A DNA stretch of 64,000 bases, taken from positions 3,472,001-3,536,000 of the forward strand of contig CP085834.1 of assembly GCA_020809705.1 (NCBI GenBank), given 5' to 3'. Of this stretch, positions 23,580 through 55,420 are shown piece by piece (the stretch's first letter is position 1; each line of letters opens with the position of its first letter). The notes under the pieces were generated by a model. That model worked only from the letters and a program-made list of their open reading frames with translations. It was not told where the DNA came from and did no database searches. The position numbers and the translations under genes were made by a program. The DNA comes from Calonectria ilicicola (Eukaryota > Ascomycota > Sordariomycetes > Hypocreales > Nectriaceae).

Positions 23580-26500
23580 ATGGATCACGATGACTCTCGG
23601 GGCTTGCTGAAGGGTATTCTTGGGTTTTTTGCTCGAAAACCACCAGAAAAGCCCACTTCGTTGGCGTCACAGAGGCGCGACGCTTGGGTACGGGCGGATG
23701 CATATTTGCAGCATGGAACCCTTGACTTTGACGAAATCGACCCTGAGCAGGTAGCAAGAACATTGAGAACGTTCGAAAATCTTGTCCAATATGACTCTGA
23801 TCGGGAATCAGACTCTGTCAGTAGCTTTATTTCATCGCATATTTCATTCACTCTTCCAACCTGCCACTTCCCACTAACACAAGACCGTGGCAGAGCCTAC
23901 ACCACGCCACCGCACCATACCCGAAGCTTCGGGCGGTTCGTAGCATGATCCAGCGTCCGAATCACGATGTGTACCCCGACCCACGCCCGACCATTCGCGT
24001 CAGCAAGCGCAAGCAAGAGAATGACGCAGCCATCGAAGAACTTTCACGCTTGGAAACAGAGGCAAAGAAGCGTCGGGTTCTACCTCGTGAGGAGTCAAAC
24101 GTGGACGATGACGTGGAAGAGCCCGAAGCAGACTTTGCGATTGCAATGAGAAAACACTCAGTATCGCTGCATCGGGGATTACGGGCACATTGGACCTGCG
24201 TGTGTCAGGGATGCTCTGGTTTGAGCGTGAGACTCTCACTGCCTCAACGGAAGAAAATGTCTCGGATGCAGACGTCCTTCGAAGTCTTTTTTGGCGTGCA
24301 ATCTCTACTTGCAATCACATTGCAGGAAGCTAAGATCACTGTCAAGTGAGCCTTCGAGGCTAGATTATAATGTACTTTTACTAACACGTTTGGTGTCAGA
24401 GATATACAGAATGAAAAGCCCATGAGCACGTCTGAACTTGCGCCCAATGTCTTGCCAGAGTTCGCTCACATCTGCAAGTGTATCACGGAGTCACTAGATC
24501 AACAAAATTGCTTGCATCTTCTCTTTGAAGACGGTTTGTTTAAGAGGCTCCGTCCGCAACCGAAAACATTTGGCGATTCGCAAATGCCCAGAACAGTGTC
24601 TTTGTCGGCTCTTTTCAAGCGCCAACAAGAATTACGTGGTGGGTTATCTGTTCTACCACTTAAAGGGAAACGAATTTTAGCAGTCGTGCTTGCCACGGCA
24701 TTGCTTCCGTTCTTAGAGACGCCTTGGGTGCAACCTTCGTTTAATCACTCAAATATTCGATTCTTCCAGCCACTACAGGATGGAGAGCTACCAGACATCA
24801 CAAAGCCTTTCCTGGACATGGAGCAAGTTCCGCTCATTTCTCCTAACAGGATGGCCACTGGGGACGGCCAAGCCGAAGCGGCCAGCTCCAAGCACATGGT
24901 ACATCCCAATGCCAGTGTATTGGCGCTAGGTATTCTCCTGTGTGAGCTTCATTACTGTACGCCAGTGGAATCATGGCAAAGCGACACAGAGACGACCAGA
25001 AATGTCAACACTGGCTATTATACCAGTCTTGATATTCTTAAAAATTTAGAAGTTGATGCTGGTGTGGATTATTACCTCGCTACTAAAGCATGCCTGCAGT
25101 GGGAATATTTTCCTGCTGGAGAGCTCACTAGTTTTGAATCCGCAAGCGTCCAAAGGCTCTTTTATCAGAATGTAATCAAAAGACTTGAATCTGAGATTTT
25201 CAAGTCGTGGCGCCTTCGATTAGAAGATTTGGATTCTCTCGGCTCTCGAGAGAATGCGCTCTGCTGGGGACTAACCGGCCGAGAAGTCGTCCGCCGACAA
25301 ACAAGCACGCCCGAGGCCTCTGCTAGAAGCAACGAGGAATTGGCAGTCGCTTTGCCTGCAGCCCCAAGTATGAAACCCTTGAACTATACCTCGCACAACC
25401 CGTCCATGCTTATGCAAATGCCCACCCGAACAATACGAGGTTTCCAAAACCATACACACCTGGTGGAATCTTCTACTAAAAGCCTGCACTTTTTTGATGC
25501 AAGCCATCAAATAGGCTCTACAAAAGAGTAAGATATTATTGGTATCGTGCAAGAAGCCTTTTTGCTAAAAATATCCCCTAGTACGGCACTGTCGGAAAGA
25601 TGGATGAACAATCTTTTGTCCTCTATTTATCACCACATTGACTCGTATGATAGTGTTATACAACCATATACAGGTCCCATCGAAAGTGGGACCAGGAAAA
25701 TCCAGCCTGTACGAATAGCAATTTTAGATTCGGGATTTGATCCTAAAAACTCTTTAATTAATGACGATGGGGGACTCGATCCACGCATCAAAAAAGCACA
25801 GAACTTTGTACACGAGACAGAGCCCTGTGACCTTCAAGATGAGATAGGGCATGGCACTCATGCTCTTGGTCTCCTCCTCAAAGTTGCCACATGTGCAGAG
25901 ATTTATATTGCCAGAGTTGCAAATAAAGAGACTCTTGGTCGAGACAGCTACGATGCGATAGCAAAGGCAAGGCGGGCACCACATCGAACCAAACTTTATA
26001 TACGTGCTAATAGCTCGGACAGGCGATCAATCATGCAGTCACTGAATGGAATGTAGATATTATATCTATGTCATTTGGCATCCGCGAATACCATGAGCCG
26101 ATGAAAACAGCGATATCGAATGCACTGCACAATCAAACACTGATGTTCGCTGCAGCATCTAACGATGGAGCAAATCTTGGCCGAGCCTTTCCAGCTAAAT
26201 ATCCTAGCGTCTTTTGTATACACTCGACTGATGGAAATGGAAACCCATCGGCATTCAATCCTTCAGCGGACGAAAAAGATGTCAACTTCAGTCTGCTTGG
26301 AGAGCATGTCACTTCTCATTGGCCAGCAGGGAAGAAAGGTCACAATGATATTGTCAACATCATGTCAGGAACTTCAGTAGCAACGCCAATTGCCGCTGGG
26401 CTTGCCGCTTCAGTTCTATCATTTGTTCGGCAGCAAGAGCGGGGCTTGCCAAAGGGGAGTGACTTGCTCGGGCCGTGGTTGAAGGATGTTCATTCAATGG

Positions 26501-32379: not shown

Positions 32380-35300
32380 TCATTGGCTGAGAATTTGATC
32401 CAGCATTCCGTCAACCCCATCGATAGGTTCAAGATGCTGTTTCACAGTTTCCCGCAGCGTCATGGGCAGTGATAAACCATATTGCTTTCCGATAATCAAG
32501 CACTCCACAAGAGCTTTATAGGCTCGCTTTTGAACAGGCCCTGGCTGTTGTTGGGATATCAAGGAGCTCATCGTTTTTGGGATTGCCTCGGCAATCAGCC
32601 ATCTGTGGTCGGTGGGTTTTTTTTGGCAGAGAATTAGACATGAGGCAGGGGGCATGTTAAGGAACCGGTCCTGTCCTTTTTCCCTCGAGCGCTGAGCGAA
32701 TTGGAGGATAGCAGTGAGGAAAAGAAGCAATCTGGCGGGATCCTGGTTCTCACTGATGGCAACAAGTTCATCAGCGCATGCTTGGGTCGCATCACTGAAC
32801 AAGTGTTCCTCATAACTACCACCAATGAATCCCTCATAATACTCTGCAATGACAGTTGAGAAGTATTCAATTGGTCGTGGATCCTCAGTCTCAAGAATAG
32901 CGAAGTGTGTGCTGAAGAGGACGACTGTGCGAGCCGCGTTCTCTTTCCTTCTGCCATCTCGAATGCAGCCATCGAAATCGACCAAGAATTCGCGAACCCC
33001 GTAGTGTAGTGACTCTCCCGCATCTCGGTGGTAGGCGAGGGAGGCAAACTGTGCGAACGTCCGAGCTGAGATATCGACTCCTTCTCTCCACTCGTGTAGA
33101 GCCCCTGCGAGAATGACGCTTGAACCCACAAGGACCCCAATAACTAACAGGGCCTCCAGATCTGCAGTAGAGACCACGCGAAATATCTGAACTGAGAGTC
33201 CAGTCATGACTGCCAGGTTTTTGGCATTCCTAGCCTCAATCAACCCGGTGCCAAACTCAATATATGCCTGGGCCCATTTTCGCAGTCGGGCCGTTTTGTT
33301 ATTCTTCACGAGATCTTGCAACACATGCATCACCTCCCAACGGCCAATGGACGAGTACTTTAGGTAAAGTGTGACCATTTGAAGAAGAAACGGAAAATGA
33401 AATGAAAAGGTTAGCGTCCTAATGGTGAGACCAACCAATCTAGATGAATCTTCGTATCGTGCAACAAAAAGCTGTTCTTGAAGCCCTAAGAGCTGTTTAA
33501 CCCGCTCCTCCACAGGATCTGTGGGCCCTTTTAGGGGAGGAGCTCCTGGGGGAGCGGGAAGCTCATCCACTCGTGCTCCATGTTCAAGAAGCAACTTGAT
33601 CACCTCCTTAGAATTCGCCTGAATGGCTCGAATTAAGGGCGTATCACCGTAGTTACCTTTACTTTCGATCCTAGCGGACCGATCTAGAAGCAGAGACACA
33701 ACATCCTGGTGCTCTCCAGTGACCGCAATGTGGAGGGCAGTCAATTTGCTGCGATCTTTCGAATTGACCTGGGCACCATGATCGAGCAGCAGCTTCACCA
33801 TATCTTTGTGGCCCCGGGTGGCGGCCCAGAAAAGCGGTGTTCGACCATAGTTGTCCTTTCGTGAGGCTAGACGGCGGAAGAAAATGTGATCGGCGGCATC
33901 CTGAGTTAGTAACATCTCGGCCCAAGCTAGATTGCCAAAGTATGCGGCCAAGTGCAAGAGTGTGAATGAGGGCGGAGCTCCTCCGTACTTCTCCTGATCC
34001 CAATAGAATCTCCACCAGTCTTCCCGGACTGGAGACTCGGCTCGGAAGAACTGACGTGAAAACTCGGACGTGTCGTCGATTAGATTAAATGCGTGCCGGA
34101 AATGCTCTGGCCAGTATAAACTAGCATAACCCAAGAGGGTATTTTGAAACGGCAAATCGCTGATACTTCCGGGAGACTTGTAACTCGCTTCGATGAGTGC
34201 TAAGCAGGCCCTCATAAGGGTGCGGTGGGTAGTGTGGTTCATATAAAACATGCTGATCCCTTCAATATTGACTTGGTCGCTCTGAAAGAATTCCTTTGCT
34301 GATTCATGGACAAGGTTCACTACATCTCCATCGATTTTAACCAATAGCCCGCAGGATGCAAGCCGGTCTCTCATCACTTCGGTTGGCATCAAGTCATCAG
34401 AGGCCGTGACCCCCGCTGCCACTGTTAGTTCTTCCACTGTCAAGGGTCGGGCTGCTAGAACAATCCATTGAAGGATGGGGACCAGCCTTTCTTTATCTTC
34501 GACTTGCTGGAGGAGGCGTTGATAGATTCCACCTAGGCCTTTGGGAACTCGATGAAGAATATCCTGAATTTTGCTCCAGCTCCTACCCCTAAGCTCATTC
34601 GCGACAAATCCAACCCATAAAAAGGTTCCTTCAGCACCGGCCATTAAGGCTTGCCGAACCTGCAGGAGCATCTCTTCTGAAAGAGTTTGCTCGGATGCCA
34701 GCTCGTCGACTTTGGCGAAGATATATCGCTCGACATCCTTTTCTATTTCTTTATCCGAGTCATCAAGTTTGATCCGACGGTATGGGCCAAGTTTGCCCTC
34801 TAAAATTGCCGGTTGGGGGCGGGAGAGAAGGATGAGTTTTAAGTTTGGTCTTTGTACCTCCTCATACTTCAAGAAATAGTCCCCGAGGGCGTCGAGCAAT
34901 TGCTTCAGAGATTCCTTTTCGCACTCATCTAGGCCATCCAGCACACACACTACTTGACACGAGGTACTTTGACGGAGCAAGATCATGAAAAGCCTCCACA
35001 AGGACACAAAGCTGGAAATGGTATATTTTGTGGTCTCGGACCCTTCAAAATAGTTCTTAATGTGCTGCGCTAGGTGGGGGTGGAAGTTGAGCCATTGGTG
35101 TATGATACCTCTCATGATAGTCACTGCCGTGTTTCGGTTTTTGTCGCGGTTACTGCAGAAGTAGTAAAGGAGGACGCCCTGGGCGGAATCGACCACCGGC
35201 TGCAACACCTCGGTAATATAGATAGCCAGCATGGTTTTCCCTTTTCCAGGGCCGCCCGAGACCCACAGGAGTGGTGGATCGGCGCCTCCGAGCCAGTCTT

Positions 35301-36396
35301 GATAGCTGGGGTGTCGTACGAGCCATTCGCATGTACCGTCAGCCCTCCGGCCTTTCAATGCGATGAGAGAACTTCGGTCAACTTCGGGTCTGGTTAATAG
35401 CAAAGCATCCATAACTGTGGCAGCTAACGCATATGTGTCCGCTGCCAGAGCTACTGGCTTTGGGGCTGTGGGGATCAATGACAGGATTTCTTTAGCATAT
35501 GCCGCTGCTGCCGCCGCGGCATAGCCTTGCCAGAGCTTGGTTTTGTGTGAATCCGCATAGTCACAGATTCCCCGGATAATCAAGCATTGTGAAATGTCTG
35601 TCAAATCGGCTGCCTCCGTCTCGAAACAGAGGATTTCATGCTGACGCGCCAACTTGTCTCTGGTCACACCATGACACATCAAACGGTTACTGGATGCAAC
35701 TAAACCATAATGGACTCTCGGGTTTAGTGTCTCGCGCGGTACCCTCGAGAGGATTCTATCCGGGTTGCAATGATCGCAACCGTCCTTTGCAGGCTCGGTT
35801 GTGGCGTGGCCATAGTCCGAGTCGAAGACGATGTCCTGCTCCCTGCCAGGGTGGGTAAAGGTGGTAGGGTCCGTTTTTACAATGGCGGAGATGTACTTGG
35901 GTAGCTGACTTTCACCGAGGATATTATTTGTTTCAGCCTTGCCCGCGGCTGTGAGGAGTAGATTTGATGGCTTATTCAAAGCCCCAGTGCTGGTGAACTG
36001 ATCTTCCGAGCACTCCCTCCCACAGCTGTACTGGATGAGGCCTGACCGAACAGCCGTCGGTTTACTCACCACAATATCGCCAAGACGAATATCCTCTCTC
36101 GCACTTGGCACTCCCCCCCCAATGCCGACCATCAGGCTGAACCGAATAGACTTGAAGCTAGTGCGCATCTGCGTAGCGATAGTCGCGGCAGAGGTGGATC
36201 CGTATTCGCCGAGAGGCGGGTAAGCGACCACAACGTTATGACCGTTGAGGGTTCCTAAAACAAATTTGAAACTGTCGTTCACACTCAACTCTTCAGGTAG
36301 GTCGGCGTGAATATGGTCGAGCATTGCCTTGGCCGCTGCCACCTCCAAGGGCAGAGCGCAAACCCACCCGACCGTGTAGTCATCTTGGGAGGTCAT
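32380..36396 (-). CDS. NLR: PNP_UDP - NACHT - ankyrin receptor
   Basis: This is a single exon of 1338 aa. Residues 1-310 are a nucleoside-phosphorylase-like (PNP_UDP) domain, starting YTVGWVCALPLEVAAAKAML, with VGIGGGVP (90-96), DIRLGDIVVS and the purine-site FETEAADL (258-265). Residues 376-690 form a NACHT NTPase with Walker A GGPGKGKT (381-388), Walker B VCVLDGLDEC (about 483-492) and a winged-helix-like HESAKEFF end. Four ankyrin repeats span about 810-945. The last 390 residues are unusual: a helical, partly hydrophobic region instead of more repeats. Fungal NLRs of this type sense non-self through the repeat domain, and PNP_UDP is a recognised N-terminal effector annotation. It faces the zinc-finger/ankyrin gene convergently. 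Upstream there is 1.9 kb without genes. The gene appears intact. Confidence 0.93.
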   Translation of the reverse strand: MTSQDDYTVGWVCALPLEVAAAKAMLDHIHADLPEELSVNDSFKFVLGTLNGHNVVVAYPPLGEYGSTSAATIATQMRTSFKSIRFSLMVGIGGGVPSAREDIRLGDIVVSKPTAVRSGLIQYSCGRECSEDQFTSTGALNKPSNLLLTAAGKAETNNILGESQLPKYISAIVKTDPTTFTHPGREQDIVFDSDYGHATTEPAKDGCDHCNPDRILSRVPRETLNPRVHYGLVASSNRLMCHGVTRDKLARQHEILCFETEAADLTDISQCLIIRGICDYADSHKTKLWQGYAAAAAAAYAKEILSLIPTAPKPVALAADTYALAATVMDALLLTRPEVDRSSLIALKGRRADGTCEWLVRHPSYQDWLGGADPPLLWVSGGPGKGKTMLAIYITEVLQPVVDSAQGVLLYYFCSNRDKNRNTAVTIMRGIIHQWLNFHPHLAQHIKNYFEGSETTKYTISSFVSLWRLFMILLRQSTSCQVVCVLDGLDECEKESLKQLLDALGDYFLKYEEVQRPNLKLILLSRPQPAILEGKLGPYRRIKLDDSDKEIEKDVERYIFAKVDELASEQTLSEEMLLQVRQALMAGAEGTFLWVGFVANELRGRSWSKIQDILHRVPKGLGGIYQRLLQQVEDKERLVPILQWIVLAARPLTVEELTVAAGVTASDDLMPTEVMRDRLASCGLLVKIDGDVVNLVHESAKEFFQSDQVNIEGISMFYMNHTTHRTLMRACLALIEASYKSPGSISDLPFQNTLLGYASLYWPEHFRHAFNLIDDTSEFSRQFFRAESPVREDWWRFYWDQEKYGGAPPSFTLLHLAAYFGNLAWAEMLLTQDAADHIFFRRLASRKDNYGRTPLFWAATRGHKDMVKLLLDHGAQVNSKDRSKLTALHIAVTGEHQDVVSLLLDRSARIESKGNYGDTPLIRAIQANSKEVIKLLLEHGARVDELPAPPGAPPLKGPTDPVEERVKQLLGLQEQLFVARYEDSSRLVGLTIRTLTFSFHFPFLLQMVTLYLKYSSIGRWEVMHVLQDLVKNNKTARLRKWAQAYIEFGTGLIEARNAKNLAVMTGLSVQIFRVVSTADLEALLVIGVLVGSSVILAGALHEWREGVDISARTFAQFASLAYHRDAGESLHYGVREFLVDFDGCIRDGRRKENAARTVVLFSTHFAILETEDPRPIEYFSTVIAEYYEGFIGGSYEEHLFSDATQACADELVAISENQDPARLLLFLTAILQFAQRSREKGQDRFLNMPPASCLILCQKKPTDHRWLIAEAIPKTMSSLISQQQPGPVQKRAYKALVECLIIGKQYGLSLPMTLRETVKQHLEPIDGVDGMLDQILSQ

Positions 36397-38266
36397 TTCT
36401 TAACAATGCACATATCCACGGCGCGATATCGATGGCGAAATTCCTCTTAGGCGAGGCCAGGGAAATAAGGAGCAAAGAGGGGCAGATGCCAGCCTCGCGC
36501 GGTCTACATTAAACAGGAAATCGCCCCCAACAACAACACGTGACATATTTGTTGGGCGCTTAACCGGCTATTCTTACTCGTCTGTCCGAAAATCCCGCCC
36601 TGCAACTTGAGGATACTCTTTATCTATTATCTCAAGGTTGAAAGAATGTCCTCCGAGCATATACATACACGAGGAGGTAGGCTGGTTTTCATCGCTCTGC
36701 TAGTGCACATCAACCAATAGGTGCTCTAATTTGTATTGGTGGATCTCCTTAGCAAATTTACTAAGACCCGAACAAAATCGCTATAACTACCCGTAGCTCT
36801 GCACAAGAATTTAAATTGAAATACGATGTTATGGATCTAAATTTGTTTCTATAAAAAAAATAAATATGATAAAGATGCATAATTAACCCTCTTGATAATC
36901 CGGTGCCTAGGTTTTTCGTGTTTTTTTTTTTCGAGCGAGGTTGACGGGCCGCTGGAGTTCCAGACTCATTTTCATTCAGCCCCCCGGTCAGCTCATCATC
37001 ACTAGTTTTCATTCGCAACTCGAGATATAAGTGGATGAAATTTGTCGTATAACTCGGTCTCTTTCGTCCTACGATGCATTTTTCGGACGTGAGTAAGGCG
37101 CTGATATTGGGATAACACAATATGCAAAAAGAAATGAGAGATTTAGGAGCTTTCTTTGTGTGATCAGATGATAGATGCATTGTAAATCTCATATTACTAT
37201 CGAATATCCAAATCAAAAAACCATGCACATTCCGATTAAACTTAATTTTCCAGATGAGGATTCAGAGGGGCAAGTCCTATTATGTGTAAAGCTTCCGAGG
37301 CCTGAAACCCATGACACAATGACCTCCATATCCAATATTCTGGTAAAGATGCTAGGTTAGATCAATAAAAAGTGTCAAAACATATGCAGGAACATCAGGA
37401 CGGGCGCACAAGTGAGTAGCTGCGCCCCTGAGCTAATTCCCAGCTGGTCCTTCAAATCCCGGGAACTAGCCTCTCATGGGCCTAGTCCATAACCTAACCT
37501 CTAGTGCACACCTTAGCATCATGGATCACCGTGCTATGAGGCAACATAATTCCCATCAACGAGTCAAGGACGTTCAGAGGAGTCCATCTTTCTCGTGCCG
37601 ACTTCCGCTAACTAATGTGCCGTCATCCGTTTGATGACGCAATTGCCGATCTTACCGAATGCCACATCAAGCCCTATCGTCCCAAACTTCGAACTGGTTT
37701 GCGCCACAGCCCCTTAGTTTAACCATTTCCAGAAGGTTACATCAAGACGTTAAGATTACTACTATTTGGTGCAGGTACCAGTTGAACAGAGTTTTAATCC
37801 AGTGTTTGTCTTGATGGAGGCAGCACTAAAGCAATGTAAGGTGTATACACATGAGGCAACATCTGACATTTGATGCGATATGGGATGAGACATGGAATCG
37901 GTATTCAAGCATCTGAATTCATGGCCATCTTTGGATATCAGCTTTTATATTAATATATTGTGAAATATACCCCATGATATATATAGTGGAGAAGACGGCA
38001 TCGGGTAGAGCAATGCCTAAGTGTGTTAGTGGCTTGCCCGACTCAATCCTCCCACACCAATCGTATTAACGGCGTCCAAGGTCGGAAAAATCGGGATCTC
38101 TCTTGATTTAATTAGCCTTAGCTCTCCAGGTCAAATTCTTATAAGCAGTAACGTTTCACAAACATTTCATTGCAATAGAATAAGCAATACAGAGTCTTGA
38201 CTAGACTCGTTAGGTGGCATCGTTGACATTTCGGCTGTCTCCCTAATTAGTAAATCTTGGATCACC
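36397..38266. other. Intergenic region of 1.9 kb, AT-rich in parts
   Basis: No gene is supported. A 61-codon ATG frame at 37175-37360 reads protein-like (INxxIPIKLNFPDEDSEGQ-type composition) but has no domain and no splice partner; it may be a remnant. A minus-strand frame at 36761-37228 is AT-rich chance sequence. The left end holds the NLR promoter. Confidence 0.5.
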
Positions 38267-42849: not shown

Positions 42850-44480
42850 ATGTCTATTTGCGAGACTACAACAAGCCCAGCTGGGTTGAAATTGCAGCAC
42901 AGCAACAATCACGTCACACCAGAGATGTACGGTTTGCAAAAGGTTTCATCCGCTTTATCGCTGACGCCTTTGGATATGAATATGCCAAGGCTTTATGGAG
43001 CGCGATGGATCCTGTGCTTCAAGTTACAGCCTGGGACCAACATAACTCAAGTGTATGAGAGCCCCCTTCTTGTAACGGAGGGCTACCATGTAATAATTCG
43101 CTAATAAATTCTACAGGTATGAGAATTTAAAGCTCGGATTGGCACACACAATCAAATCCATTCCGTGGATCGCTGGAACTATTGTCAGTATAACCTCTGA
43201 TTCGACTCTAGGTTGTTATGAGTCCTCAGCCGCTGACGGAGTCACAATCGTGCAGGGACCAGAGGAGGGCAAAGATCCAAATCACAACAGAATCCAAGTT
43301 ATGGATTCATCTAACGGTGTCAAGTTCCCGCAAGTACCCCGTGGCCTCGCACCGCCGAATTCCACTGACACATTCCTCTTGCAGATTTAATGATCTCACG
43401 GGGCTTCTTCCATCGTACGACGAATTGAAGAAGGAACATTTCCCTCTGTCCAAACTTTCGACTGCTCAGCTCGGGCCAATTGGTGTTTTTGCAGAGGCAC
43501 CGCAGCCGGTCCTAGCAGCACAAGCAAACTTCATTGAAAATGGGCTTCTGCTTGCCATCGGCGTCCACCACTCAGCTTGTGATGCTTCAGGGCTAGACAC
43601 GATTGCAGATACCTGGGCCATGAATACCGCAGCGACTACTGGATCCAATCCCTTCACCACCTATGACACCCAATCTAACGATCGCGCACCCTTAATGAAA
43701 GGGACTCCAGGAGCTGGCGTGGCTGACTTTGTCGAGTATATCCTTGCACCCAGTGCCAATTCGCCCTCGCCTCCAATAGCCCCGACTTTTCAAATGCCAT
43801 CACTTGCAACGCGCATCTTTCGCTTTTCACCTGAATCGCTCGCGAATCTCAAAGTGACCGCCGTGGCTTTTTCCACACACGATGCTTTATGTGCATTTGT
43901 TTGGCGACACATGACGTTGGCGAGAAATGGCCGCAGCTCTACTCCCATGAATAGTGACAACTATAGCAACCAAACCTCTGCATTCGCCTTTGCAGTAAAC
44001 GTTCGCGGCCGCACTAGTCCACCACTTTCGCCGACATATCTTGGCAATGCCTCGATGGTTTCGATGACAGACCGGCTTGCGAGATCGACTCTTCTGGCAG
44101 ACACCAGTTATTCTCGTGCAGCAGCCGCTATCCGGAAATCGCTGAATGCCTTTAAGAGTCCCAGTCGCGTTCCGCTAATCATCGGGCTTTTTGATTCGCG
44201 TCCAGATGCTACAGACTTCAAGTTAGCATACAACGCCTTCTTGGGTCCCGACATTGTTCAATCATCCTGGGCTGATATTGGCATCTATCAAAGCGACTGG
44301 GGCATTTTGGGAAAAGTTGACGCATTTCGGACTCCTGGAGAAGGAGCAGATGGAGTCGTCCTTGTTTACCCCAGACTTCCGGATGGTGGATTGGAGGTTG
44401 CTGTATCATTAGAACTTGAGGCGATGGAGAGGCTGCTCACGGATGATCAATTTAACAAAGTAGCTCAGCTTTGGGGTTAG
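42850..44480 (+). CDS. BAHD-type O-acyltransferase (trichothecene acetyltransferase-like)
   Basis: This is a three-exon gene (42850-43052, 43117-43323, 43385-44480) encoding 501 aa. Family enzymes transfer an acyl group from acyl-CoA to a hydroxyl of a small molecule. The N-terminal LTPLDMNMPRLYGARWILCF matches the usual LSPLDQ-x-PR-x-Y start. The catalytic HHxxxD is H198-H199-SAC-D203, preceded by NFIENGLLLAIGV. The structural motif near the C-terminus is SDWGILGKVDAF, in place of DFGWG. The ending is an ordinary DDQFNKVAQLWG helix. The second intron must use a weak GTTCCC donor to keep frame; the GTACCC site nearby gives a stop. It is divergent from a Zn2Cys6 regulator, suggesting a small metabolite-modifying unit. 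The substrate is unknown. Confidence 0.82.
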
Positions 44481-50024: not shown

Positions 50025-51089
50025 TCAAGATCCCTCCGACCTGGCCGCTATCCTCTTGCTTCGGTGCCTGTATTCTCTTGCCCGACGACAGGCAATACAT
50101 TGTGCATCATCATCAAAGCAATGTTCGTTCAGCTCCCTTTCGCATTTAGAATGCGGCACGTCATTATCACAATTATAACAGGTCTCGGAATGATAAGTGC
50201 AAGACCACAAGATCTCGGTGATGCGCCACCACCATTCGCTGTCTAATCGTTCTTTGGTACCAGGCGTCTGCCAAGAAAAACGACCGGTTTTGGTATCATA
50301 GTAGTCCCTCTCGTCGTTGTACCGGCATGGGAGCTCTCGTACGCAGAGACGGGTGGACTTCACAGGTTCAGCATTTTTCAGATAATTCCATCTCACCCAA
50401 ACCCACCCATCCTCCTCACCGTCCAGGCACGAATCATCATCATCATATTCGTCGTCATCATCAATCTCTATACCTGGAATGACGTCAAGATCGAATTGAA
50501 CATATGATATGCCTTTCTCTTTAACATCTTCCCACGAGTGACAATCTTCTGAAATGACGAGTATCCAACTCCGATAGCGATTAGAGGTCCTCCACCGCTG
50601 GAACTTGTCGGATTCGCACCAGGTCGGTACAATGTGTGGGGGTGGTTCTTTGCCGCGGACTTCATTTAGAAGTTTTTCAAGAGCTTCTTCCTCCGAGAGC
50701 CCCTCGACAGCGGCTTGCCTCATTTCTTGCGCAGCCTTTTTCCGAAAGGCTTTCTCACGGCGATGGTGCTCGATGCATTCGTCGTTGTTGGCGAAGCCCG
50801 TGTACACATCTGCACGGGGTTGATAATGGGAGTTGTCGAATGCGCTGGACCACAAACGCTTTTCGCCAACTTCTCCTGGCGGGACGGTGAGGCTTCCCAA
50901 ACAATAAAGCTGGATGCCGAGTTTTTCAGTGACTGGAGTGGCTTTCCAACCATCGCAAACAACGGTGTAAGTACTACCCGCATGATCCTGGAAATTGCAT
51001 TGAGAAGTCCTCGCAAATCTGGAAACAAGTGGCCTTCTGGGTGCTTTGCCCCCAGTACGAGAGCGCGCTCTTGTCTTGGTTCGTACCAT
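50025..51089 (-). CDS. Histone H3-tail mimic fused to WW-like and Cys-rich regions
   Basis: A single exon of 354 aa from the ATG at 51089. Residues 2-19 read VRTKTRARSRTGGKAPRR, against histone H3 1-18 ARTKQTARKSTGGKAPRK. The similarity continues to about residue 29 (L-x-S near H3 20-22, AR-x-S near 25-28). The counterparts of R2, T3, K4, R8, K14 and R17 are kept. K9, K18, K23 and K27 are replaced by S, R, R and T. No histone fold follows. Instead there is a domain with CDGWKATPV, a coiled basic helix, an acidic run (DDDDEYDDDD) and a WW-like YYDTKTGRFSWQTP segment. A Cys/His cluster (CYNCDNDVPHSKC to CIACRRA) and a basic end complete it. A chromatin-reader-binding or modification-mimicking role is plausible. 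Chance resemblance over 28 residues is unlikely. Confidence 0.75.
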   Translation of the reverse strand: MVRTKTRARSRTGGKAPRRPLVSRFARTSQCNFQDHAGSTYTVVCDGWKATPVTEKLGIQLYCLGSLTVPPGEVGEKRLWSSAFDNSHYQPRADVYTGFANNDECIEHHRREKAFRKKAAQEMRQAAVEGLSEEEALEKLLNEVRGKEPPPHIVPTWCESDKFQRWRTSNRYRSWILVISEDCHSWEDVKEKGISYVQFDLDVIPGIEIDDDDEYDDDDSCLDGEEDGWVWVRWNYLKNAEPVKSTRLCVRELPCRYNDERDYYDTKTGRFSWQTPGTKERLDSEWWWRITEILWSCTYHSETCYNCDNDVPHSKCERELNEHCFDDDAQCIACRRAREYRHRSKRIAARSEGS

Positions 51090-51320: not shown

Positions 51321-54300
51321 TTAGCAAACAGAAATTTTACCAAATATCTCATGATCCTCCCTAGTCCAAGGCCGATGAGATTTTAGAATCCCTACAGCAA
51401 CAGGATGCCCCTCTTCTGTTGCAAACTTTACCGCTCGCAAATATTGGTATTGTCCATCTCCTTTGGTCTTCACGCCTTTGTAGAGCAAATAATGTATCAT
51501 ATCGATATATCCATGCTCTGCTGCAGCCTCAAGCACTGTTCGTCCATCACGTTCGTCCAAACTCGGCGCATTAATGTCTGCCCCTGCTTCAATTAGAACC
51601 TTGACAGCTCCAATGTAACCATTTGACGCAGCGTGCTGTAACGACGTTGCAAGACCAAGCCCTGCACCTGGTTCGTTCGGATTTACGCCTAGTTTTATTA
51701 GTTTCTTAATTAATGGTATATTGCCTGCTGCCGACGCTGATTGCAACGCCGTCGGATGCGGAGATGATTCTTTTCCTTGCACTTCGTCAGCAATCATGGT
51801 CTGATTGGCGAGAAAAAGTTCGATCATAGATGACAGCCTCCAAGAAATAGCATAAGCGAGGGGCGTCGGTCTATCCTCTAGCCTTTCATAAACATAGCCG
51901 GGAGATTGTAAAATCTTCATAGCCATAATCCCATTACCAACCTCCAACGCGCAATGCAAGGCATCGGAACAGAGTTGGTACCCATGTTCCATAAGCCAAT
52001 CAAAGACTTTCACCTGCATCGGCTGATTGTAATCAGTTATTGTGCGCTTCAGATCCATCGCGCAGGGTTGGTAACCATGCTTCACAAGCTGGTCAAAAAT
52101 ATCACATCGGTTGCGTCGCACCGCAACCATTAACAGGGTATCATAACGTTCCATCATAAGTTTGGCCCTAAGTACACCATCATCATCATCTCCCCAGATA
52201 AAAATGTGCTCGCTGCTTGCAGAAAACTTCCCAACATACTTCCCGTTGTTATTTTGAAATGTTTCGATGGCAGACTGTGAAAATGAAACACCATGGTTTA
52301 TCAGTAGAGATAATACATCTTTATCTCCAAAGTAAACAGATGTAGCCAGGGCTAGGCTTTCTGGAAGACTACACTGCTCAAGAGAAACATCAAAAACTTT
52401 TCTTTGTTCAAGCAATTTCGTGACAAAAGAGATGTCTGCTGTCTTTACAGAAATGTATACCGCTGCTAAAAGTTCTGTAGCATTATAACAGGATAAACTC
52501 ATATTTGCTAGCCAGGATTGTAGGGAAATTCGTTCATATATTATAGCAAATGCAAATAGGCTCTCATTGCGGGCTGTCGACTGATTCAAGTTTACCTGTG
52601 GGTAGCGGAGCAGGCTTTCGAACGTATCATCCCGGGTTTTGATTATACCTATGATACAGCGTATGTCTGGTACAATTCCGTGGTTAAGGATAGATTGGCT
52701 GAGTTCAAAGCTGTTATAAAAGACTGCAAGTCGGAGGCCCTCTGAGCCACAAGCGGCTCCCATATGTAGCAGTAATTCGACGGCTTGCTCCTGCTTCCCC
52801 CTTATTGCCCACGTTAATGGAGTTCCATTATATATCACCAAATGGTCATATCCGGCCTTCAATCTGTTTACAATGAACTTTGGGCCACAAGGTTCGTCCT
52901 CTGACCGCGAGTAGTAATGATCTCGGTTCCAGAAATAGTTGATTGAAGCACCTCGTTCTATCAGCAAACGCATAACCTCGATCTGACCGACATGAGCAGC
53001 GAAATGCAAACCAGAGGGTAACCATTCATCTGGCATTTGGTTTATCCCTACATCTAGGAGTACCTTGCATAAAGCACTATCTCCCAGAATTATTGCTTCA
53101 AACAGGGGTGAACAGAGTGCATTATCGGAGGAAGAGATGTATAGTGAGTTAGAACTGTCGGCTTCTGTCAATAGGGCAATAATGGTGTTTGCCAAATCTC
53201 TCCTGTGATGTCGAATCGCGTATACTAGTGTCCCAATAGGGCACTCAGGTTCGCTTCTTTGTAACAATAGTTCAAGATGATCAAGTAGAAGATTCGCAAT
53301 CTGATTCCTATCCGGAATACCAGTGAGATTGTTGAGGGCCGCAAGGATCTGCAACTCAGTGGCTGGGAATCCAACCTTTTCTGAAGCGAACTTAACTGCT
53401 TCGAATTTTCTTCTATCTTCCCACGGAGCAGTCGCTGCAAGAATCGACGAATATTCGCAACATCCAGATATTGTAACTCTTTTCAAGTCTGCGCCATAGC
53501 TGAAAAGAAACCGAACCATTTCCATATCTGATCGAATTAAGGAGAAGTGGATTGGTAGTATGCTTCGTAAGCTTTTATTAATGCTCCGAAGTTCATTGTT
53601 GGACGGGATCTGTTGATTGATCATAACTCGTATATCAAATCCCACGTCAATTAACGTTTTTAATACATCAGTACGTGATAGGCGAACGGCGGCAGCGAAA
53701 ATCCGAAACGCAAGAGCCTGAGATTTTAGTTGCAGAAATGAAATGCAAGTGTGGAATGCCACTTTCATTTTCAATAGAGTATCAATGCTATCCATGATAG
53801 CTTCGTCCATTTCGTGGAACGAAAGCCCAGCACGGAGATTATCTGAGACAAGATAGAGCAACAATTCCAACATAGAGATGATAGACATAGTGGTCCCAAT
53901 ATGGCCATGGATGCAGTGAGCAAGTAAATAATTGCTGGTTTTGTCGCCCTCTGGCATCAAACTGATCAGCAGCTTGTAAGTGTCTGAATAGTCAAACATA
54001 TCTGCCTTATTTGATCTTCCAGGTAGCGATAAAAGCTGCTCAGGTAGTTTTTGCAGCGCCAATGGGGAATCAGTATCAGAGCACCGATTTATCAGATCAT
54101 GCACTACTTTCAACACTGAGACAGTTATTGCCTGGATTTCGGCTCTCGGTATTACATCCTTGTACTTGCTGGGACGGCAGTGTTGGTTCAGGAATAGTAA
54201 CCAAGGTTGTGAACTGGGCCAAGAAAGTTGCAAATCATCGGATTCCAGAAAGTCAAAGGCAACCGTAGTTTCTGCTGTAGGAGCCAGTGCATGTTCAATG

Positions 54301-54686
54301 TCTAGCACAGGCTCGTTGTCAAATTTGCTAGCCAAGCTATTCCTGACCAATCCCTGATGGGGCTTTTTATTTTTGTCGAATTTCCATTCTCGCAGTTTCT
54401 CGTAGAATTTGCGGCGACTAATTATTGTTAATAATAATGAACAATGAATCAGCGGGCAATTGGGTGCGCAATACCCCGTCTTAAATTTGAATTCCCCGCG
54501 TTGTAAAATTTCTCGAACCTCTGTTTCATTTCTCCTCTCGACAATGTAAAGTCTGTGTATGGTCGGTTTCACAGCCTCCCATTTTGCGTCCTTGTGTCGA
54601 CTACGGCGATGTATCTGAGGGCGGCTGTCAGACTCCACAGACACGTCCGCAGATAGTCCGGAAGTACGAGGTCGTATTGGAAGCAT
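51321..54686 (-). CDS. Clr5-domain ankyrin-repeat protein
   Basis: This is a two-exon gene, complement of 54475-54686 and 51321-54417, encoding 1102 aa. The 57-nt intron (54418-54474, GTATTG to TTAG) is a multiple of three with no stop. Removing it joins EFKFKTG to RRKFYEKLREWKFDKN. That restores the fungal Clr5 domain at residues 34-89: W-x-x-x-K-x-x-I-x-x-LY, then a helix ending EW-x-F-KN. About 900 residues of ankyrin-like repeats follow, divergent in the middle and regular at the C-terminal end (TALQSASAAGNIPLIKKLI, GRTVLEAAAEHGYIDMIHYLL). Clr5-ankyrin proteins are numerous in ascomycetes. Their partners are mostly unknown; a recognition role is inferred from the repeats. Upstream lies a promoter with a 14-bp inverted repeat. 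Confidence 0.88.
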   Translation of the reverse strand: MLPIRPRTSGLSADVSVESDSRPQIHRRSRHKDAKWEAVKPTIHRLYIVERRNETEVREILQRGEFKFKTGYCAPNCPLIHCSLLLTIISRRKFYEKLREWKFDKNKKPHQGLVRNSLASKFDNEPVLDIEHALAPTAETTVAFDFLESDDLQLSWPSSQPWLLFLNQHCRPSKYKDVIPRAEIQAITVSVLKVVHDLINRCSDTDSPLALQKLPEQLLSLPGRSNKADMFDYSDTYKLLISLMPEGDKTSNYLLAHCIHGHIGTTMSIISMLELLLYLVSDNLRAGLSFHEMDEAIMDSIDTLLKMKVAFHTCISFLQLKSQALAFRIFAAAVRLSRTDVLKTLIDVGFDIRVMINQQIPSNNELRSINKSLRSILPIHFSLIRSDMEMVRFLFSYGADLKRVTISGCCEYSSILAATAPWEDRRKFEAVKFASEKVGFPATELQILAALNNLTGIPDRNQIANLLLDHLELLLQRSEPECPIGTLVYAIRHHRRDLANTIIALLTEADSSNSLYISSSDNALCSPLFEAIILGDSALCKVLLDVGINQMPDEWLPSGLHFAAHVGQIEVMRLLIERGASINYFWNRDHYYSRSEDEPCGPKFIVNRLKAGYDHLVIYNGTPLTWAIRGKQEQAVELLLHMGAACGSEGLRLAVFYNSFELSQSILNHGIVPDIRCIIGIIKTRDDTFESLLRYPQVNLNQSTARNESLFAFAIIYERISLQSWLANMSLSCYNATELLAAVYISVKTADISFVTKLLEQRKVFDVSLEQCSLPESLALATSVYFGDKDVLSLLINHGVSFSQSAIETFQNNNGKYVGKFSASSEHIFIWGDDDDGVLRAKLMMERYDTLLMVAVRRNRCDIFDQLVKHGYQPCAMDLKRTITDYNQPMQVKVFDWLMEHGYQLCSDALHCALEVGNGIMAMKILQSPGYVYERLEDRPTPLAYAISWRLSSMIELFLANQTMIADEVQGKESSPHPTALQSASAAGNIPLIKKLIKLGVNPNEPGAGLGLATSLQHAASNGYIGAVKVLIEAGADINAPSLDERDGRTVLEAAAEHGYIDMIHYLLYKGVKTKGDGQYQYLRAVKFATEEGHPVAVGILKSHRPWTREDHEIFGKISVC

Positions 54687-55420
54687 GGTGTTTTGGCTCG
54701 TTGCATGAATGGGGTTGAATGAAAAAGAACATGCTTGTCAGATGAGTTCGAGCAACCATCACAATTAAATATTCAACCCCTCGTTTCAGGTGCGGGCGGT
54801 GGCCAACCACAGGTACGTATCTTTGGTTGCCTCGTCTTTCGTCATGACGCAAGAAAAAAAAGTGCGTTAAAAGCTTTGCACCAATAAAACTAATAATGGC
54901 TGTCAGCCAAGGCGCGTGAGAGTTTTCTCGTGGCGCGAGCTGTCAGTTCAAAAAGTGCGTTATCAGAGATTAGACCTATCGGAACGCTGATTGACATGCA
55001 GGGTCGCATCAGGCTTGCAGGCACAACATGGCGCGGCGATGCACCAAAGCTCCATTCAAGCAACCAATCAAAATGGGCGAAAAAGGTGCGTTAACGTGTT
55101 TCCAACCAATCATTTCCCTAGGAAGAAGTTAACGCACCTTTCGGTACAGACTCCTCCCAAGGCGGTCGAAGACGATTCGGATGTTGGAGCGCCGTGTTAA
55201 CCAGCCAGTGTAATAAGAAAAAAGTCATTCTCTTCAAGGATATTTGAGTTGCTCTCCCTCATTATAAGTAGCAGTCTCTCTCTCGCGTGTGATGGTTTGG
55301 TACTCTACTTGCCCCAGCGCCCAGCACGCAGACTGCGATTCCCCAACACTTGCCATCACCATTTTCTCGAGACACAAGAACTCATTTCATTCATCAGTAT
55401 TGAAGACTTCCAGATATACA
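54687..55420. promoter_or_regulatory. Divergent intergenic region with repeated GTGCGTTA motif
   Basis: The word GTGCGTTA occurs at 54862-54869, 54955-54962 and 55087-55094 on the plus strand and once inverted at 55131-55138, each next to an A- or T-run. The region separates the Clr5-ankyrin gene (leftward) from the small gene at 55421. It has no supported CDS. Confidence 0.6.
55083..55142. repeat. 14-bp perfect inverted repeat
   Basis: AAAGGTGCGTTAAC at 55083-55096 and its exact complement at 55129-55142 are separated by 32 bases. It could be a dimer binding site or a hairpin. The arms contain the GTGCGTTA word found twice more in the same promoter. Confidence 0.8.

Follow-up and report, generated by a model that had tools for sequence, protein, structure and literature searches.

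To our knowledge, the histone mimics known so far mostly involve few residues and belong to single animal, viral or yeast proteins. Influenza NS1, a non-histone protein, carries an H3-like stretch that is said to engage chromatin factors, and the same is said of the H3-like stretches of EZHIP and SARS-CoV-2 ORF8; in the case of EZHIP, PRC2 is inhibited via a K27M-like mechanism (PMC6513997). The vertebrate PAF15 (PCLAF) is a non-histone protein with an H3-like extreme N-terminus, which reads VRTK after removal of the methionine; as described in the same source, it acts together with PCNA and is a ubiquitylation target of UHRF1, the PHD finger of which binds 2-VRTK-5 of PAF15 with a Kd of 2.2 uM versus 1.5 uM for H3 (PMC7060239). 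Fission yeast Swi6/HP1 possesses an internal H3 mimic with an auto-inhibitory role (PMC7192584, citing earlier work), and in G9a/GLP an automethylated H3-like motif makes a binding site for HP1 (PMC9768651). Among the histones themselves, an ascomycete H4 variant is the subject of PMC10878826.

Here we examine a protein encoded in a stretch of 64,000 nucleotides (hereafter, the window) of Calonectria ilicicola (assembly GCA_020809705.1, contig CP085834.1, positions 3,472,001 to 3,536,000 of the forward strand). This protein (P0001) resembles PAF15 in being a non-histone with an H3-like extreme N-terminus and belongs to a fungal family the best tails of which are nearer to H3 than that of PAF15 and are attached to a different body. 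The mimic of Swi6/HP1, as described, is internal, whereas the fungal family bears its mimic at the N-terminus, as a tail at least 18 residues long, and no domain is recognised in the body; the motifs reported for G9a/GLP are short and lie inside a methyltransferase, in contrast to the long N-terminal tail of an altogether different protein; and the stretches of EZHIP, ORF8 and NS1, as far as they have been described, are shorter and confined to single animal or viral proteins, whereas the fungal tail is longer and extends across classes. By sequence, an N-terminal H3 tail of this kind fits the class of histone mimics, and the family plausibly is one. Such a family, in which filamentous fungi of three classes have preserved the greater part of the H3 tail at the head of an unrelated body, would naturally compete for the H3-tail machinery or recruit it. 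The initial annotation of this DNA knew of no described fungal protein of this design, and we likewise found no description of such an H3-tailed protein in open-licence PMC papers, although Swi6/HP1 is a published example of a differently designed H3 mimic in a fungus.

Organisation of the window protein

The coding frame and its parts are listed in Table 1. No ATG of the open frame precedes that at 51089, and the only further methionine, residue 123, falls within the conserved body, which makes a start farther downstream implausible; an upstream exon, so far unseen, may exist. The residues that follow the initiator methionine match H3 1-28 at 17 of 28 positions without a gap, whereas 20,000 shuffles averaged 3.0 matches and never exceeded 10, and up to 21 of 24 positions match in relatives, which bears out the initial recognition of a near copy of the H3 tail starting at this ATG. 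For this copy, it was also correct that R2, T3, K4, R8, K14 and R17 are kept and that K9, K18, K23 and K27 are not; K9 is replaced by Ser and S10 by Arg, and the protein begins with M-VRTK, as in the PAF15-type VRTK N-terminus. The top PDB sequence matches of the protein are histone H3 chains over residues 1-30, with an E-value of about 0.01; this weak score of the window copy alone is due to its shortness, and comparison with the relatives makes the resemblance to the H3 sequence certain. The tail and the genome's own H3 share 15 of 25 residues (the methionine included), and only 5 of these 15 are encoded by identical codons, so that the protein sequence has been kept while the DNA drifted.

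Table 1. Coding frame and parts of the H3-tailed protein, in window coordinates
Feature	Position	Strand	Basis or remark
Whole coding frame, protein with H3-like tail (P0001)	50025..51089	-	354 aa and stop; no internal stop on translation
H3-like tail, residues 2-19 (H3 1-18), VRTKTRARSRTGGKAPRR, conserved part	51033..51086	-	slow site rates; low pLDDT
Residues 20-29 (H3 19-28), weaker H3 similarity, mostly fast-evolving linker across the family	51003..51032	-	site rates
Folded alpha/beta domain, residues 27-205, fold not recognised	50475..51011	-	AlphaFold
Acidic run, residues 208-227	50409..50468	-	sequence and alignment
Cys/His cluster, residues 297-334, eight candidate zinc ligands	50088..50201	-	conservation; zinc binding inferred
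C-terminal basic motif RHRSKRIAAR, residues 341-350, candidate nuclear localisation signal	50040..50069	-	pattern

No Pfam family was detected in the protein at E-values up to 10, and hence no known zinc-finger domain was matched, in keeping with the statement that the remainder is not histone; the WW-like segment proposed along with it has no support as a WW domain. Nor is the histone fold (PF00125) one of the six families to which any of 52 members gave a match at E up to 0.1, so that what the family has in common with H3 is tail 1-18, the histone fold being absent from the window protein by Pfam. The Pfam family PF15715 (PAF histone-like) was weakly matched by 5 of the 52 members (best E-value, 0.0076), a label that true H3 also receives, and the window protein has no match to it at E up to 0.1. 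The PIP-box pattern for PCNA, Q..[ILMV]..[FY][FY], was found in none of the 92 sequences of the family, unlike the PCNA-associated PAF15.

The Cys/His cluster noticed initially is real: each of positions 297, 304, 307, 313, 316, 323, 331 and 334 is kept in 45-47 of 52 aligned rows, gaps making up 4-6 of the rows without the residue, and the cluster is, by sequence, a candidate zinc-binding site. The acidic run is stronger in the window copy than in its relatives, half of the alignment rows having been compared. A basic C-terminus was detected by pattern in 47 of the 60 rows in which the C-terminus is readable (of 79), with RRR ends only in P0033 and P0039, and this motif probably has a nuclear role. 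In the AlphaFold2 model, a check suggested with the initial annotation, pLDDT is below 50 at residues 1-15 and 17-21, compatible with a flexible tail that is predicted to be disordered, and the part downstream is folded; the tail is followed by the alpha/beta domain, an acidic loop, the Cys/His cluster and the basic C-terminus.

The family and the history of its tail

The body of the window protein belongs to a family for which a single-sequence search yielded 51 relatives and a profile search, in which the 7,997 candidates with the most words in common were scored, yielded 91 in all. Source labels name the genera Neonectria, Dactylonectria, Ilyonectria, Clonostachys, Fusarium, Mariannaea, Thelonectria, Talaromyces, Paecilomyces, Aspergillus, Aplosporella and Saccharata, and many records are unnamed. 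With the window protein, the set comprises 92 rows, 8 of which have no readable N-terminus, leaving 84 for the tail counts; a predicted upstream extension was removed from P0004 and P0007, and the body start was placed by hand in three rows. Over H3 1-24, the rows have between 3 and 21 identities, with at least 10 in 64 rows, at least 14 in 36 and more than 14 in 28. Because the register of the tails was fixed by aligning them to H3, H3 matches are favoured; shuffled tails aligned in the same way gave a mean of 6.2 of 24 and a maximum of 14 (4,200 shuffles); 48 of the 84 rows, taken alone, are not above the shuffle range, and the low-scoring rows cannot by themselves be called H3-like because shuffles reach 14 of 24. 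The best tail over H3 positions 1-18, that of P0057, has 17 of the 18 residues. A MAFFT alignment of 52 members, in which H3 was not used, has the consensus MxRxKxxxRKSTGGxAPRK, with a nearly invariant R8. Thus, rather than no conservation of the first 30 residues, which was to count against the initial proposal, we found about the first 19 to be conserved across homologues and the next ten not.

The residues kept most often in the 84 rows are P16 (74), R8 (73) and R2 (67), followed by T3 and K4 (55 each), K9 (54), S10 (51), T11 (50) and K18 (40, with Arg in 20 others); K14 is kept in 21 (Arg in 28), K23 in 17 and K27 in 4, and K4 and K9 are kept together in 39. The depiction of a K4/K14-like tail devoid of the silencing lysines therefore applies to one divergent copy only and does not describe a family in which K9 is about as frequent as K4 and much more frequent than K14. 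Different lineages keep different parts: MARTKQ is retained in the tails of A. felis and A. lentulus, and no more than MARTK is left in P0099 and P0102; among Fusarium, the fujikuroi and lateritium groups have RRLSTGG or RRPSTGG, most of the fujikuroi group having RRxSTGG without K4; and P0103 and P0112 have hardly any tail. Because the tail is reduced in several lineages, it is not needed in every one of them, and because the retained half differs by lineage, no single known reader explains the pattern. This lineage-specific retention represents a ready-made mutational series for determining which readers and writers matter.

The same genome contains a second copy of the family (L002 1501-2523), with 49% identity and one in-frame TGA, the tail of which, MLGTKTKARKSLGGRPPKK, keeps K9-S10, whereas the window copy has Ser at position 9. 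Both copies may be drifting, given the long branch and the loss of K9-S10 in the window copy and the in-frame stop in the second one.

A tree of 79 bodies, constructed with the tails excluded and five short rows dropped (a quick tree, drawn by midpoint, with an assumed root), is divided into three main groups: one comprises Saccharata and three unnamed rows, and the other two are made up mostly of Eurotiales and mostly of Hypocreales, respectively. All three include good tails (P0105, with 18 of 24 residues; P0058, with 21; and P0012, with 20). The window protein is found among the Hypocreales rows, on a long branch (0.86) that belongs to none of the starred sets comprising up to half of all rows. 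Aplosporella, nearly tailless, forms a long branch next to the Eurotiales; it belongs to the same order as Saccharata and yet is separated from it, so the body tree is not a clean species tree, and old paralogues, long-branch error or horizontal transfer are all possible. When the root was placed on the Saccharata branch, parsimony reconstructed the H3 residue unambiguously at 16 of the first 18 positions and left positions 4 and 14 undecided, a result that suggests that the H3-like tail was present at the base of the sampled tree.

Site rates, estimated on the body-only tree, have a median of 0.77 at tail positions 2-18, compared with 0.71 at 296 body columns and 2.9 at positions 19-30. The slowest tail positions, R8 and P16, are slower than 82% and 76% of the body columns, respectively, and K14 is the fastest of the first 18; the rates at positions 19 and 20 are above those of 69% of the body columns, and positions 21-29 are mostly about four times faster, with rates above 86-97% of the body columns. 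Between Clonostachys solani (Sordariomycetes) and Talaromyces pinophilus (Eurotiomycetes), 21 of 23 tail residues are identical, compared with 124 of 281 in the body. The slow evolution of positions 2-18, the agreement across classes and the drift of codons relative to the genome's own H3 together indicate, at the level of sequence comparison, that the tail is old and under selection although it is predicted to be disordered.

In the canonical H3 gene of this genome, the first intron lies inside codon 25, so exon 1 encodes H3 1-24. The best family tails match H3 up to residue 24; in the 25 rows with at least 14 matches over the first 18 positions, the similarity to H3 fades past residue 20, and the constraint weakens nearer residue 20 than codon 25. 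Capture of H3 exon 1 by the ancestor of the family is a plausible scenario for the origin of the tail.

Candidate functions of the tail

The interpretation that we favor, as a reasonably probable one, is that the family protein is an H3-tail mimic that docks on readers, writers or erasers of the H3 tail. A fungal ancestor of the family would have gained the H3 N-terminal tail sequence, possibly via the first exon of H3, and its product, with a flexible, H3-like free N-terminus, the Cys/His cluster and the basic C-terminus, would probably be nuclear. Proteins able to recognise H3 tails would find in this N-terminus A/V1-R2-T3-K4 and R8-K9-S10, as well as P16. A flexible end with R2-T3-K4 and R8-K9-S10 could fit into PHD fingers, chromodomains and SET or LSD-type enzymes; candidate partners would include PHD or chromodomain readers, K4/K9 methyltransferases, demethylases and S10 kinases. 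Conceivably, the tail recruits such partners or pulls them off nucleosomes, two modes of action that sequence cannot distinguish; the nuclear location, the binding to H3-tail factors and the recruitment or competition are what we infer from these features. The window copy, in which K9-S10 has become Ser-Arg, would, if still working, act via its VRTK end, as PAF15 does with the PHD finger of UHRF1.

A search of this genome produced 16 PHD matches and 48 chromodomain matches, which indicate simply that candidate readers exist. About two dozen of the chromodomain matches, on many contigs, have the same E-value of 2.0e-9 and recurring frames of 211 and 389 aa, and several are close to contig ends; they are probably copies of one dispersed mobile element. 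A search for the SRA domain (UHRF1) gave no match in the genome, the controls being equally silent.

The tail of yeast H3 is an import signal: Kap123 binds K14 and K23, K14R has a minor effect on import, and H3 residues 12-17 and 21-26 are ordered in the Kap123 structure, as reported in PMC5677370. The tail of the fungal family could be such a nuclear import signal only, its likeness to a chromatin ligand being incidental, an explanation that we regard as unlikely. It would sit well with the minor K14R effect that 28 of 84 members have Arg14, and Saccharata, which is devoid of the C-terminal basic motif, has 18 of 24 tail residues; however, the second Kap123 contact, K23, is kept in only 17 of 84 rows, positions 21-24 are among the fastest, and R2, T3, K4, R8, K9 and S10 are kept though they lie outside the residues ordered with Kap123. 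A basic C-terminus, moreover, is already present in most members with a readable end, and the F. fujikuroi group has lost this motif together with much of the tail. A simple coupling of tail loss with loss of the basic motif is rejected by Saccharata and by A. felis, in which the motif is present and the tail is short.

Alternatively, a captured H3 exon 1 could have supplied a start and a promoter, the tail being a decaying leftover that is functionless now. Similarity that fades from residue 20 to residue 25, close to where H3 exon 1 ends, and tails that are degraded in many lineages are compatible with this scenario. We nevertheless consider it improbable because positions 2-18 are about as slow as the folded body and far slower than the linker next to them, and because tails from different classes are more alike than the bodies attached to them, neither of which would be expected of an unused leftover. 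For the window copy, taken alone, a relic is still conceivable.

Still less probable, in our opinion, is that the protein inhibits an H3 methyltransferase as a pseudosubstrate, in the manner of EZHIP, such that the lineages with Leu or Pro at position 9 block a K9 enzyme, for example, the K9 methyltransferase DIM-5/KMT1. Leu9 and Pro9 are found in 8 and 5 of the 84 rows, respectively, and those from Fusarium keep S10-T11-G12-G13; against this, a methylatable K9 is kept in 54 rows, the window copy has Ser9, and it is hypothetical that Leu or Pro would trap a K9 enzyme. Finally, convergence or chance, that is, a basic, glycine-rich start that merely resembles H3, is already refuted by the family and can be given practically no credence, notwithstanding the modest E-value of the window copy alone and the rows with fewer than about 10 matches that fall inside the shuffle range, given that the score of the window copy far exceeds the maximum among its shuffles and that relatives reach 19-21 of 24.

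H3 tails on unrelated proteins and genes near the locus

A search with residues 1-40 of P0012, which has Arg14, gave 27 scored candidates: 7 family members, 10 histones and 10 other, non-histone proteins from outside the family with near-perfect H3 tails (P0061, P0064, P0065, P0066, P0067, P0068, P0070, P0072, P0073 and P0074). The bodies of these ten include ankyrin repeats (P0064), DUF7025 with an AAA ATPase (P0066) and SH3 (P0073, Pisolithus albus, 18 members), and for seven of them Pfam gave no domain at E up to 0.1. Six of the proteins begin with the tail, whereas in P0061, P0064, P0070 and P0074 it follows 24-111 residues, an internal placement that is perhaps due to gene-model error; the single metagenome records among the ten may be artefacts. 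P0065 and P0067 are 42% identical overall and have 19 of the first 21 residues in common; their SET-like appearance by eye is rejected, having no Pfam support, and the 60 PDB matches listed, out of 141, are H3 or H3-variant chains.

Lys14 is present in none of the ten unrelated tails (8 Arg, 1 Leu and 1 Thr), compared with all ten histone rows, a comparison that is biased by the Arg14 of the query; in one of the histone rows, P0075, the tail is interrupted ahead of Lys14. The absence of Lys14 from unrelated tails may thus be taken as a lead. It is conceivable, if rather doubtful, that the H3 tail is a portable docking tag in fungi and perhaps other eukaryotes, from which K14 was removed so that the tag escapes modification at a lysine that is modified in nucleosomal H3. 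If the other H3-tailed proteins are real, H3-tail marks detected with antibodies or by mass spectrometry may include non-histone proteins in such organisms.

The gene for an ankyrin protein with an N-terminal Clr5 domain (51321-54737, minus strand) ends 231 bases upstream of the start codon of the window protein, on the same strand. Elsewhere in the window, a single frame at 32380-36399 (minus strand) encodes an NLR-like fungal protein that combines a nucleoside phosphorylase, an NACHT/NPHP3-type NTPase and ankyrin repeats; a PF02458 acyltransferase with a trichothecene 3-O-acetyltransferase-like N-terminal domain is encoded at 43212-44480 (plus strand) and a DUF7580 protein at 24371-25531 (plus strand).
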